The notes under the pieces: generated by a model
What the model was told of the DNA's origin: nothing
The model's database searches: none
Seen by the model: only the letters and a program-made list of their open reading frames with translations
Assembly (NCBI RefSeq): GCF_018882205.1
Contig: NZ_JACVOU010000001.1
Location: 62,001 to 126,000, forward strand
DNA length: 64,000 nucleotides
Source: Polynucleobacter bastaniensis
GTDB taxonomy: Bacteria; Pseudomonadota; Gammaproteobacteria; Burkholderiales; Burkholderiaceae
Direction of reading: 5' to 3'
Made by a program: the position numbers and the translations under genes
Part shown: piece after piece, positions 30,359 through 34,556 of the stretch
Numbering within the stretch: position 1 is the stretch's first letter
Layout: every line of letters begins with the position of its first letter

Positions 30359-30906
30359 AACTATTGCGAAAATTTCTTATAGTGTCTGCGCTACTAGGCA
30401 CTTGCCTTACCGCTCATGCTGAAAAAGCCGATCAAGATAAACCCATCATCTTGGAAGCAGAAAAAGTATCTGTGAATGACGTACAACAAGTCTATGAGCT
30501 TGATGGTGAAGTGCTCTTAATCAAAGGCAGTATTTTGATTACTGGTGCGAAGGGCAATATCAAAGTCGACCCCGAGGGTTATGAGTACGTTGATGTTCAG
30601 GGTAATTCAGAATCTACTGCCAGCTTTAGACAAAGACGTGAAGGGCCCGCTAATGAGTTTATGCAGGGTCGGGGCAAAACGGTTACCTACAATGCAAAAA
30701 CTGAGCTTCTCACGCTAACTGGTGATGCCAGCTTGAAGCGTCTTCACAATATGCAAATGCTAGATCAATTACACGGTTGGAAAATTGACTACGATGATGT
30801 TCAGCAGCGCTATCAAGTCTTACCGCCTACTGATGCCAAAGCAGAAGACCTGCCACTAGCTCGAGCCATCCTTTCACCAAGAAGAAAAGCTACACTAGAG
30901 AAATGA
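30355..30906 (+). CDS. lptA: Lipopolysaccharide transport periplasmic protein LptA
   Basis: Bridges the periplasm in LPS transport. The 183-residue precursor has a cleavable signal peptide (about 1-22, ending LTAHA) and an OstA-like jellyroll with [20 protein letters not shown] and [20 protein letters not shown]. Its start and end overlap lptC and lptB by four bases each, so the three are tightly coupled. Confidence 0.95.
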
Positions 30907-31670
30907 CCACGAATTCCAGTAGCACTCAAAAACCAGCAACCTTAGGTGCTCAGCACCTTCAAAAGCGCTATGGCTCTCGCACAGTAGTTCGGGATGTATC
31001 GATAGAAGTGAAATGCGGGGAAGTGGTTGGGCTTTTGGGGCCAAATGGCGCCGGCAAAACAACCTCTTTCTACATGATTGTTGGTCTAGTTCCTTTGGAT
31101 GGTGGGAGCATTGTTTTAGACGGCATTGATATTACGCGTCTACCCATTCATGAACGAGCTCGTATGGGCCTGTCCTACCTCCCACAAGAGGCTTCTGTTT
31201 TCAGAAAGCTCAATGTGGCTGAAAATATCCAAGCCGTCTTAGAGCTGCAAGTACAAGGTGGAAAAACATTAAGCAAGGCTGAAATAGCACATCGCCTAGA
31301 TGAGCTCCTGGGCGAGCTCCAAATCAGTCATCTACGCGACAACCCCGCTCTCTCCCTATCTGGTGGCGAGCGCCGCCGTGTTGAGATTGCTAGAGCACTA
31401 GCCTCCCAGCCTAAGTTCATTTTGCTTGATGAGCCATTTGCTGGCGTTGACCCAATTGCGGTTGGAGAAATCCAGCGGATTGTACGTTTCTTAAGAGACC
31501 GCCAAATTGGCGTACTTATTACCGACCATAACGTTCGAGAGACCCTGGGGATTTGTGATCATGCCTACATCATCAGCGAAGGTAGCGTTCTAGCAGAAGG
31601 CAAACCAGACCAAATTATCGAGAATGATGCCGTCAGACGAGTCTACCTAGGCGAAAACTTCCGCATGTAA
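30903..31670 (+). CDS. lptB: LPS export ABC transporter ATPase LptB
   Basis: Cytoplasmic ATPase that drives LPS extraction with LptF/LptG (not in this window). The 255 residues show Walker [18 protein letters not shown] (about 46-53), signature [18 protein letters not shown] and Walker [14 protein letters not shown]. An N-terminal extension of about 12 residues precedes the fold. Usually rpoN comes next; here only a fragment remains. Confidence 0.97.
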
Positions 31671-31712
31671 GTATTCGAGGCTTTTCGAGTATTTATCAAA
31701 TAAACATGATCT

Positions 31713-31840
31713 GCCCCCTTGGTTTTCAGCAAAATCGCTGATACGCTGGAGGTTCATGAAGTCCATTTCCGTATAAACAAGTACAACATTACAGGGGCCT
31801 GCTGCGCACCTCGGGTAATTATTTGCGCACGCATTTTGTT
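31713..31840 (+). pseudogene. rpoN: Decayed remnant of rpoN (sigma-54)
   Basis: In the usual rpoN place between lptB and hpf, one frame reads PLVFSKIADTLEVHE, like the sigma-54 DNA-binding region (PLVL..IA..L.MHESTISRVT). A frame change gives S-IS-R-INKY (31762-31784), matching STISRVTxxKY with small deletions. A further shift gives CAPRG-NYLRTHF (31803-31837), like TPRGxxxLKYFF. At least two frameshifts and the loss of the N-terminal domains and RpoN box mean it cannot be functional. The family alignment is from memory. Confidence 0.72.
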
Positions 31841-31862
31841 TTTCTATGAATAGGAGCTGCTG

Positions 31863-32186
31863 ATGAATCTGAAAATTAATAGCCGTCATGTTGAAGTTAC
31901 TCCAGCTATGCGTTCCCACCTCGAAGCTGGGATGGAAAAAATTCGTAAACACTTTGACCACGTTTTAGATGCCACCGCATTTCTGATTGTCGATAACGCC
32001 AAAGAAAAAGGTCTTCGTCAAGCAGCCGAGATCACCATCCACCTTAAAGGTAAAGAACTCTTTGCCGAAGCACATAACGCAGACCTCTACCATGCCATGG
32101 ATGCAGTAGTTGATAAACTTGAGCGTCAAGTTGTGAAGCACAAAGAAAAAATTCAAGATCATCACCACGAAAAACATTTTGAGTAA
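31863..32186 (+). CDS. hpf: Ribosome hibernation-promoting factor, short form
   Basis: Binds the 30S decoding centre and inactivates ribosomes in stationary phase. The 107 residues fit the short HPF/YhbH type: MNLKINSRHVEVTPAMRSHL, then a basic middle (KKH-type) and VVDKLERQVVKHKEKIQDHH at the end. A good ribosome site (AGGAG) precedes ATG 31863. In sigma-54-containing relatives hpf sits right after rpoN; here it follows the remnant. Confidence 0.95.
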   Translation: MNLKINSRHVEVTPAMRSHLEAGMEKIRKHFDHVLDATAFLIVDNAKEKGLRQAAEITIHLKGKELFAEAHNADLYHAMDAVVDKLERQVVKHKEKIQDHHHEKHFE

Positions 32187-32219: not shown

Positions 32220-32678
32220 ATGAATGCCCTGACCGATCTTTTCGCTTTAGACCGTATTGCCTTAAATAGTCCCTCTAAAAATAGGACTGAGGCATTTTCG
32301 GCCGTAGGGCAACTATTTGCCAAACAAGCAGGTCTTGAAGCCGAGGCAATTGTTGGATTCTTAAATGCGCGCGAAGACTTAGGCTCTACCGCACTAGGCG
32401 CTGGCGTTGCCATCCCACACGGTCGCGTAAGGGGGCTAAAACAGCCGATTGCTGCATTCGTCAAACTACAAGAACCGATTGAATTTGCTGCGCCCGATGG
32501 TGAGGCTGTATCCATCCTCATTTTTTTACTTGTTCCTGAAAAAGCAACTCAGCAACATTTAGAAATTCTGTCCTCGATTGCACAGCTCTTATCCGATCAG
32601 AATACCCGTAAGCTCCTAGCATCGGAGGGCAGTCCAGAGAAGGTGTGTGAAATCCTACAAACGTGGGGTTCAACTTGA
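32220..32678 (+). CDS. ptsN: PTS IIA-like nitrogen regulatory protein PtsN
   Basis: EIIA(Ntr), the output component of the nitrogen phosphotransferase system, which regulates potassium uptake, PHB and other targets by its phosphorylation state. The 152 residues carry the phosphoacceptor His67 in [16 protein letters not shown] and the PTS EIIA type 2 segments ([20 protein letters not shown]). The end overlaps the start of hprK. Its classical genetic link to rpoN is lost here, as that gene has decayed. Confidence 0.95.
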
Positions 32679-33664
32679 CTACTCAGCCCCTACTACTTGA
32701 AGGAATTACCGCCCAACAGATCTTTGATGACAATGTTTCTGATCTCAAGCTGTCCTGGATTGGCGGCCTTGAAGGTGCGGACAGACGATTTCCGCCAGAG
32801 GCAGTTAAAGCTGCCGCAGCTAGCTCAGACTTGGTGGGTCACTTAAATCTCATTCACCCAAGCCGTATTCAGATTTTTGGTGAGCAGGAGATTAATTATC
32901 ACGCCCAACTTGAGACGCAGCAGCGAGAAGAACAGATCTTCGACCTCATCTCTAAAATGCCACCTTGTGTGATTGTGGCCGACGGTAAAGCAGCGGATGC
33001 TGCCCTTCAACTCTTTTGCCAACGATCCTCTACCCCACTCTTTACAACAGCCATATCAGCTGCTGAAGTAATTGATCACCTTCGCACCTACCTGACTAAG
33101 ATTGGCGCGCCCCAGATTACGATGCACGGCGTATTTATGGATATTCTGGGCTTAGGAGTTTTGATCATGGGCGAGTCTGGCTTAGGTAAAAGCGAATTGG
33201 GTTTAGAGCTGATTTCTCGGGGCCACGGCTTGGTAGCTGATGATGCAGTGGACTTTGCTCGACTCGGGCCAGACTATATCGAGGGTCGCTGCCCTGTGAT
33301 TCTGCGCAATCTCCTGGAAGTTCGAGGACTAGGCTTATTGGATATCCGCACCATCTTTGGTGAAACAGCCGTACGTCGGAAATTAAAATTGCGCTTAATA
33401 GTGCAATTAGTTCGTCGCAACGATGGTGAGTTTGAGCGCCTACCTCTAGAAACTCAACATATTGATGTACTGGGCGTGGCAATTAGAACTGTCAAAATTC
33501 AGGTAGCTGCAGGTCGTAACTTGGCAGTTCTCGTAGAGGCTGCCGTACGCAATACGATTTTGCAACTACGAGGGATTGACACCTTAAAAGAATTCATGGA
33601 GCGCCAGCGTTTGCAAATGAATGCTGAAGCAGAGTCCTCAAAGTCACAAGGTCGTCTCATTTAA
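32675..33664 (+). CDS. hprK: HPr kinase/phosphorylase
   Basis: Phosphorylates and dephosphorylates HPr on serine, tuning the PTS-Ntr in betaproteobacteria. The product (about 329 residues) has an N-terminal DRTGG-like domain and a C-terminal kinase with the P-loop [19 protein letters not shown] (about residue 165), the [12 protein letters not shown] segment and [16 protein letters not shown], the HprK signature. No ATG fits: TTG 32675 overlaps the ptsN stop (TTGA), and GTG 32663 is four codons upstream. I prefer the TTG because of coupling. Confidence 0.93.
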
Positions 33665-33665
33665 T

Positions 33666-34556
33666 ATGCAAATTAATCTGATTACCGGCATCTCTGGCTC
33701 AGGTAAATCAGTTGCACTGAGAGCCTTTGAGGATGCAGGTTATGACTGCGTTGATAACCTTCCAGTCACTCTTCTAGAAAATCTCATCACTACACTAGAG
33801 GGTGAAAAAAGTGAACGTGTTGCGGTTGCTATTGATGCACGTCGCGGCCAGTCAATTGCAGAGCTTCCTCAGATTTTAGAAAATCTCAGACGCAACCATC
33901 AGGTACGTATTGTTTTCCTGAATGCTGATACCAATACGTTGATCCAGCGTTTCTCTGAAACCCGCAGGCGCCATCCGCTTTCTGGAAAAACGCAGCAAAC
34001 CCAAGCTGCCACCCTGATCGAGGCTATTGATAAAGAGCGCAATCTCTTAGAGCCTCTGCGTGCTCAAGCGCATAGTATTGATACTAGCAATCTACCCGCT
34101 CATGCTCTACGATCCTGGATCCAAGATCTTCTAAAAGATAAGCCACAAGGACTCACCGTTATTTTTGAATCTTTTGGATTTAAAAAAGGCTTGCCCAGTG
34201 AAGCGGATCTCGTATTTGATGTTCGCTGCCTACCCAATCCACACTATGACAAAGTGTTACGTCCTATGTCTGGTAAAGATCAGCCAGTTCGCGAGTTCTT
34301 AGAAAAAATTCCTGAAGTCGTCAGCATGGAAAATGACATCATTCATTTTATTGAAAAATGGTTGCCTCACTACATTGCAGATGGTCGTAGTTATCTTACG
34401 GTCGCTATCGGCTGTACCGGCGGACAGCATCGCTCGGTGTATCTTGTGAGTCGCATCATTGCGCATTTTCTGCCGCAAAAGGATTTGACAGAACTCCAAA
34501 TTAATTTCTTAAGTCGTCACCGCGAGCTAGACTCAATCCCTGCAAAAGCAATTTAA
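33666..34556 (+). CDS. rapZ: RNase adapter protein RapZ (nucleotide-binding)
   Basis: P-loop protein; in enteric bacteria it binds GlmY/GlmZ small RNAs and controls glucosamine-6-phosphate synthase. The 296 residues start MQINLITGISGSGKSVALRA (Walker A at residues 8-15) and carry VFDVRCLPNPHYD and AIGCTGGQHRSVYLV, the family signatures. The open frame extends 15 codons into hprK; ATG 33666, one base after the hprK stop, aligns with the family. The 3' end overlaps mutY (opposite strand) by 56 bases. Confidence 0.95.
   Translation: MQINLITGISGSGKSVALRAFEDAGYDCVDNLPVTLLENLITTLEGEKSERVAVAIDARRGQSIAELPQILENLRRNHQVRIVFLNADTNTLIQRFSETRRRHPLSGKTQQTQAATLIEAIDKERNLLEPLRAQAHSIDTSNLPAHALRSWIQDLLKDKPQGLTVIFESFGFKKGLPSEADLVFDVRCLPNPHYDKVLRPMSGKDQPVREFLEKIPEVVSMENDIIHFIEKWLPHYIADGRSYLTVAIGCTGGQHRSVYLVSRIIAHFLPQKDLTELQINFLSRHRELDSIPAKAI

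Follow-up and report, generated by a model that had tools for sequence, protein, structure and literature searches.

The rpoN remnant between lptB and hpf of Polynucleobacter bastaniensis is most likely a regulatory leader of hpf that grew inside the sigma-54 gene

Between lptB and hpf, in the window of 64,000 nucleotides of the Polynucleobacter bastaniensis genome analysed here, lies a short plus-strand interval (31671-31862) that reads like pieces of rpoN, and the question is whether these pieces are the debris of a sigma-54 gene or sequence that is kept for another reason. The upstream neighbour is lptB (30903-31670, plus strand, above the TIGR04406 cut-off) and the downstream one is hpf (31863-32186, plus strand, above the TIGR00741 cut-off), which is preceded by a ribosome-binding site, AGGAG (31852-31856), read in the sequence and conserved in the alignment. 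Downstream of hpf, on the same strand, are ptsN, hprK and rapZ (32220-34556); hprK and rapZ score above the NCBIfam cut-offs, and the best match of PtsN, TIGR01419, is below its own (111 vs 138.7 bits). The genes from hpf to rapZ are probably read on one transcript. Their arrangement is that of the rpoN-hpf-ptsN operon of proteobacteria, with the order lptB, (rpoN), hpf and ptsN, which is intact in at least 20 genomes of the genus and in Burkholderiaceae outgroups, whereas here rpoN is gone from its place and a promoter-like site lies inside its old code. In delta- and gammaproteobacteria, ptsN is read from a promoter upstream of rpoN, according to the portion of a review available to us (PMC13104625). 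Two small open frames also occur in this part of the window: a minus-strand frame of 104 amino acids (31647-31961), which covers the leader and the 5' part of hpf, and a plus-strand frame of five codons (31846-31863) that begins with an ATG upstream of hpf and whose TGA overlaps the hpf start (TGATG). As outlined below, a sequence-only reading of this DNA had the origin of the remnant right and its meaning wrong, the stretch most likely being an hpf regulatory leader that grew inside rpoN.

Comparison with intact genes shows that the stretch originates from an rpoN that once stood between lptB and hpf. The bases quoted in the sequence-only reading are present, with PLVFSKIADTLEVHE encoded at 31716-31760 in an open stretch without an ATG. 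When the 64 kb were searched by nhmmer with a profile built from the DNA of rpoN at five loci where it is intact between lptB and hpf (L096, L097, L098, L105 and L147), 31714-31826 was the only significant match (E=4.4e-6; the next, 0.18). In local alignments, 31713-31785 beat 500 of 500 shuffles against all five rpoN or pseudogene targets and fell on the helix-turn-helix codons, and this first piece (31715-31780, plus strand; PLVxxxIADxLExHE..R.xxKY) corresponds to positions 1043-1111 of L105, with 0 of 500 shuffles equal. The stretch at 31790-31845 aligns to the final ~50 bases of rpoN, those of the RpoN box (SLRIPAMHLRRH), 17-21 bases from hpf. Here all 500 shuffles were beaten against three of five targets, the second piece (31790-31835, plus strand) aligning to 1347-1380 of L105 and L096 and to 1412-1451 of L107; the free alignments to two pseudogenes (L101 and L103) were not significant, 156 and 164 of 500 shuffles being as good, and an anchored comparison with the same two found 22 and 23 of 40 bases identical. 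From the two separate alignments it follows that two pieces of rpoN are present in the correct order with a deletion between them. The sequence-only reading had seen three successive pieces of the DNA-binding region; its first two are indeed helix-turn-helix codons, while the third (CAPRG-NYLRTHF) belongs to the RpoN-box C-terminus, although the low-confidence tail of the nhmmer alignment agrees with the earlier placement of this piece, against the RpoN box. Scanning two typed readings of the gap against Pfam gave no match, so that the homology is visible solely in DNA-level tests. The comparison with related genomes that it proposed bore out the origin as well, since at least 20 genomes (G103, G120, G124, G062, G109 and 15 more) keep an intact rpoN in this gap, and two intermediates (G054 and G068) have a broken rpoN of 420-422 bases before hpf. 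That unrelated intergenic DNA resembles RpoN by chance, with which the empty Pfam scan would agree, is hardly credible, and this reading was rejected on the nhmmer match and the shuffle-tested alignments, the two pieces being ordered and in place and intermediates existing in relatives.

The remnant is not, however, the footprint of a recent loss of sigma-54 that it had been taken for. The genome (G000) encodes one intact RpoN of 464 amino acids on contig C5, with all three sigma-54 domains (Sigma54_DBD, E=1.4e-60), whose gene adjoins a GGDEF gene and lies ~8 kb from a flgA gene. Sigma-54 activator domains match in five places, two of them strongly, namely NtrC (L004:967-2418, contig C4; above the TIGR01818 cut-off) and a response regulator with a GSFTGA loop. 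With an intact rpoN and activators elsewhere in the genome, the loss reading fails here by the criterion of the sequence-only reading itself. In a tree of 97 RpoN proteins, built by a quick method and with long branches flagged, the G000 copy groups with the genus's own rpoN (support 96), in an inner group (99) that also holds the hpf-linked clade A, which indicates that it moved to another place or was exchanged within the genus. A second, unlinked rpoN is present in many genomes of the family, as in the RpoN1/RpoN2 pair of Burkholderiaceae described for R. solanacearum (PMC4371752, in the part available), but the intact copy of this genome does not group with rpoN2; replacement by the family rpoN2 is not supported, the protein falling outside the RpoN2 group of that tree. 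The neighbours of unlinked rpoN genes recur, with a homologue of the 163-amino-acid neighbour beside 21 of 35 other unlinked copies and a GGDEF gene beside 20 of 35. An intact unlinked rpoN coexists with broken fragments before hpf in G068, and the same pattern occurs in G054 (L021 and L101). G095 has two intact rpoN, neither beside hpf (C1:1569740 and C1:1336009; L030 and L242), and L242 is a very long branch.

Elsewhere in the genus, loss of sigma-54 is common, as Sigma54_DBD matches in only 60 of 151 genomes (48 of the 117 good ones) and in none of the other 91 (69 of 117). At least 20 of these 60 carry rpoN immediately before hpf. Among 20 hand-picked genomes of the genus, the flagellar hook-length domain scored above its cut-off in 4/4 with rpoN (G012, G018, G031 and G036) and in 1/16 without (G014). 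NtrC was found in all 41 genus genomes searched, and at 30 loci (L300-L329) the GAFTGA position of its loop is occupied by GAFPGA (27), GAFQGA (2) or GAFLGA (1). The GAFTGA loop is the element that contacts sigma-54. The co-occurrence of rpoN with the hook-length domain and the divergent NtrC loop fit a picture in which sigma-54 serves flagella in the genus and NtrC may act without sigma-54.

The dating of the loss as recent rather than ancient found no support either. The lptB-hpf interval was compared at 110 loci of the 148 genomes with hpf, one locus being dropped for want of lptB. The 109 gaps comprise 89 of a short form (175-215 bases), six with an intact rpoN, two with a broken one (420-422 bases), two of 254-255 bases, five of 97-138 and five of 57. 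The short form is thus common to 89 of 109 gaps, in genomes with Hpf proteins 86-98% identical to the present one, and the loss of rpoN at this site looks old. The simplest history is one loss before the short-form lineages split, and residual similarity to rpoN is therefore no sign of recency. Strong constraint, which the comparison of the 89 short leaders shows, is why the remnant can still be read: the mean share of the major base is 0.934 over 31713-31756 (73% of sites at >=0.97) and 0.931 over 31793-31814 (64% of sites at >=0.97), it is 0.62 over 31671-31712, and at four-fold sites of lptB it is 0.50, with 0/70 at >=0.97. Viewed as an rpoN pseudogene, the stretch has detectable homology at the ancestral place, and its remaining sequence has not decayed neutrally (0.93 vs 0.50 at the lptB four-fold sites). 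A plain remnant of an rpoN that died recently, functionless and not yet decayed, which was the view of the sequence-only reading, is accordingly very improbable; the homology of the two pieces is genuine and rpoN is decaying at the same site in relatives (L101 and L103), but pieces so much more conserved than lptB four-fold sites, with variable flanking bases and the same short form in most of the gaps, are not what such a remnant would leave. In the old reading frame, conservation is highest at codon position 3 (0.957, against 0.942 and 0.903 at positions 1 and 2), and the first block is thus kept as DNA or RNA and not as peptide. A short conserved peptide was rejected on the same ground and because gap lengths differ by non-multiples of three. 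In the group with a gap of 57 bases (L089-L093, from G096, G065, G045, G063 and G010), neither the promoter-like site nor the pseudoknot described below is present, and hence the leader is not indispensable.

The first conserved block holds a predicted promoter inside the old helix-turn-helix codons. It consists of a -35-like hexamer, TTGGTT (31719-31724; major-base share 0.90-1.00 in 89 genomes), and, after a spacer of 17 bases, a -10-like hexamer, TACGCT (31742-31747; 0.99-1.00), preceded by TGA as in an extended -10 form, all on the plus strand at 31719-31747; transcription would be expected to start at 31753-31755, six to eight bases past the -10-like hexamer. The hexamers are conserved, face a gene and, 17 bases apart, fall within the 16-18 bases of a sigma-70-type promoter, if they are written in relaxed form. 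This form (TTGGNN-17-TANNYT, toward hpf) occurs in 89/89 short leaders, in 9/9 other non-intact gaps longer than 57 bases (5/5, 2/2 and 2/2), in 5/6 intact loci and in 0/5 of the 57-base form, and it is weak evidence taken alone, since a reversed-sequence control matches in 25 of the 89 short leaders. The site is not listed by a scan for the E. coli-type consensus (>=9/12 consensus bases), of which it has 6/12 by eye. That the site is a promoter lying 5' of rpoN and reads as RpoN by coincidence was rejected, since in intact genes the motif lies inside the codons of the DNA-binding domain, at gap position ~1047 of 1397.

The intact genes carry the case for this site. In clade A, 16 of the 18 codons of RPLVLREIADNLELHEST are codon-invariant vs 110/251 elsewhere (Fisher 1.7e-4), for a test window that was chosen after the motif had been seen; this window ranks 13th of 336, and the better ones shown are the same window moved by a few codons. 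Codon invariance at the site is 0/13 vs 2/207 elsewhere in relocated copies of the genus's own type, and 2/14 vs 28/206, with no excess, in the hpf-linked clade B. One scan of genome contigs gave 80 outgroup loci. Beyond the genus, TTGGTT-N17-TANNNT stands at these codons in 37/37 hpf-linked rpoN1 of Burkholderiaceae, which are related (about ten genera) and thus not independent; the hpf-linked member of the RpoN1/RpoN2 pair has this internal motif in common with the present leader. The motif is absent from anywhere in the gene in 16 rpoN2, in 36 relocated copies of the genus and in 18 unlinked rpoN (lptB scan), so that the comparison shows its absence from copies unlinked to hpf; it is also absent from hpf-linked rpoN of more distant betaproteobacteria (16 genes) and of gammaproteobacteria (21). 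Within the genus, 6/20 hpf-linked rpoN have the strict motif. Of the Oxalobacteraceae hpf-linked genes, 0/7 have it and 7/7 have one with a looser -35. In these seven (L153-L158 and L162) the internal variant reads CTTGTT.. with GATACACT, and GC3 across these codons dips from 0.69 to 0.29 (7/7). With synonymous codons drawn at random from each gene's own usage, the probability of the strict motif was 0.00125-0.0024 for nine of ten Burkholderiaceae genes and 0/20000 draws gave it for the tenth; for two clade-A genes the probability was 0.03-0.05. Across the 37 rpoN1, codon invariance is seen at only 8 of 219 codons whose amino acid is invariant. Four of the eight, CCC, TTG, GTT and GAT, lie at the hexamers, and in the rest of these genes they have usage shares of 0.312, 0.108, 0.063 and 0.245, respectively. 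GC3 over 12 codons at the site drops from 0.77 to 0.52, which by median rank places it only among the lowest 7% of windows; in rpoN2 it goes from 0.79 to 0.84 (13/16 where the site was located).

Whether the first block could instead be a protein-binding operator or another DNA site, with hpf read from lptB or from elsewhere, also needs to be weighed. The match to the E. coli hexamers is weak, and the spacer, which is conserved too (0.944), holds a TCAGC-N6-GCTGA dyad in this genome. Such a site is nevertheless rather improbable: the 37 rpoN1 conserve codons at two hexamers 17 bases apart while the spacer codons vary, the motif always points toward hpf, and the dyad is disrupted in leaders that read TCGGC. 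The fixed spacing and orientation of the hexamers, shown by the comparison, argue for a promoter, whose activity, sigma class and start site are predicted from this pattern. Burkholderiales promoter boxes are given as TAnAAT with a TTGACA-like or TTGCC element in the portions available of two studies (PMC7563307 and PMC4603805), which name no hpf start inside rpoN. Intragenic starts within operons, described for Cupriavidus metallidurans in the accessible part of the first, are alike in that the start signal of a downstream gene overlaps code, but here synonymous constraint at the hexamers is family-wide and the signal has survived the loss of its host gene.

The second conserved block lies in the old RpoN-box codons and can be drawn as an H-type pseudoknot of ten pairs on the plus strand. 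Stem 1 (31794-31812) has four pairs, GGGG at 31794-31797 with CCTC at 31809-31812 (one G-U); a loop of five bases leads to the first strand of stem 2 (31803-31829), in which TGCGCA at 31803-31808 forms six pairs with TGCGCA at 31824-31829; zero bases separate this strand from the closing strand of stem 1, and a loop of ~11 bases precedes that of stem 2. All ten pairs are found at the homologous place in 86/89 short leaders, 2/2 broken copies, 5/5 clade-A and 15/15 clade-B intact genes, which adds up to 108 of 111 hpf-linked sequences whether they are coding or non-coding, and in 0/23 relocated copies (23 of 36). In non-redundant leaders (30 of 43), 99.0% of cells are paired and three pairs show two-sided changes; 0/500 shuffles match four of the five covariation measures and 101/500 match the fifth. 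Sliding the stem partners lowers pairing to 17-73%, a slide of +2 equalling the covariation score at 57% pairing. Examples of stem 2 are TGCGCA:TGCGCA, TACGCA:TGCGTA, which short leaders share with broken copies and clade B, and TGCACA:TGTGCA; for stem 1, short leaders have GGGG:CCCC and coding copies GGGA:TCCC. A second stem formed with the loop of the first, with compensating changes in both conserved stems, is thus what was found, and the comparison shows the ten pairs with covariation. The outgroup rpoN1 C-termini compared differ in sequence from the genus pseudoknot. From its end to the hpf start codon there are 33 bases here and 23-25 in seven other examples. A search of the genome for the second-stem pattern returned this site and one other place, and plain RNA folding, which is blind to pseudoknots, yields varied folds. 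H-type pseudoknots in bacterial mRNA leaders are known as riboswitches and from the control of ribosomal proteins. The present one is like them in being a two-stem knot 5' of a ribosome-binding site, and unlike them in having no Rfam match up to E=5 (31400-32100) and in originating from RpoN-box codons.

The alternative that survives best concerns this block, which could form two alternative hairpins that act as a switch, or a single hairpin of the TGCGCA repeat. When single sequences are folded, TGCTGCGCA often pairs with TGCGCA.GCA and stem 1 stays open, as this would have it, but neither stem is missing from 108 of 111 sequences, each has a two-sided change, and they are spaced as in an H-type knot; hairpins instead of a knot are thus unlikely, though a switch between the two stems may occur. 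For the pseudoknot, translational control of hpf is the first choice of function, put forward with some reserve.

Taken as a whole, the stretch quite probably is a preserved cis-regulatory leader of hpf, and probably of ptsN-hprK-rapZ too, that was born inside rpoN. In the intact gene, the helix-turn-helix codons would have doubled as a promoter reading into hpf and the last codons as an RNA pseudoknot just before the hpf start. As rpoN decayed at this site, selection would have retained both segments and released the remainder. In the present genome, RNA polymerase with a vegetative-type sigma factor would initiate near 31753-31755, and the leader of ~108 bases would fold as a pseudoknot upstream of the hpf ribosome-binding site, tuning the hpf message through translation or access, or through stability. 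Hpf, a ribosomal protein or a metabolite may be its partner, and control of hpf by the leader is predicted from this arrangement. A bolder version, offered only tentatively, is a conversion of gene to leader in which an hpf promoter shared by the family and a pseudoknot sensor shared by the genus arose in the codons of a sigma factor, limited its synonymous sites and outlived it as a non-coding leader, representing a new class of RNA that couples hpf to the state of the ribosome, e.g., by binding Hpf, a ribosomal protein or a small metabolite. In the literature covered, at the level of titles and abstract openings, neither an hpf promoter inside rpoN nor an hpf pseudoknot is described.

The natural series from intact gene through broken gene to bare leader suggests that the control region of one gene can be embedded in the coding sequence next to it, and that such a second regulatory layer can survive the death of its host gene. 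It also explains how dead sequence can look freshly dead, and calls for caution in dating gene losses from residual similarity. In R. solanacearum, co-transcription with rpoN1 was presumed for the gene that follows it, and disrupting that gene failed to give the phenotypes of rpoN1 (PMC4371752, in the part available). The present analysis suggests that deletions of rpoN1 in Burkholderiaceae may alter the expression of hpf and ptsN in cis, and it provides a candidate RNA for the control of ribosome hibernation.
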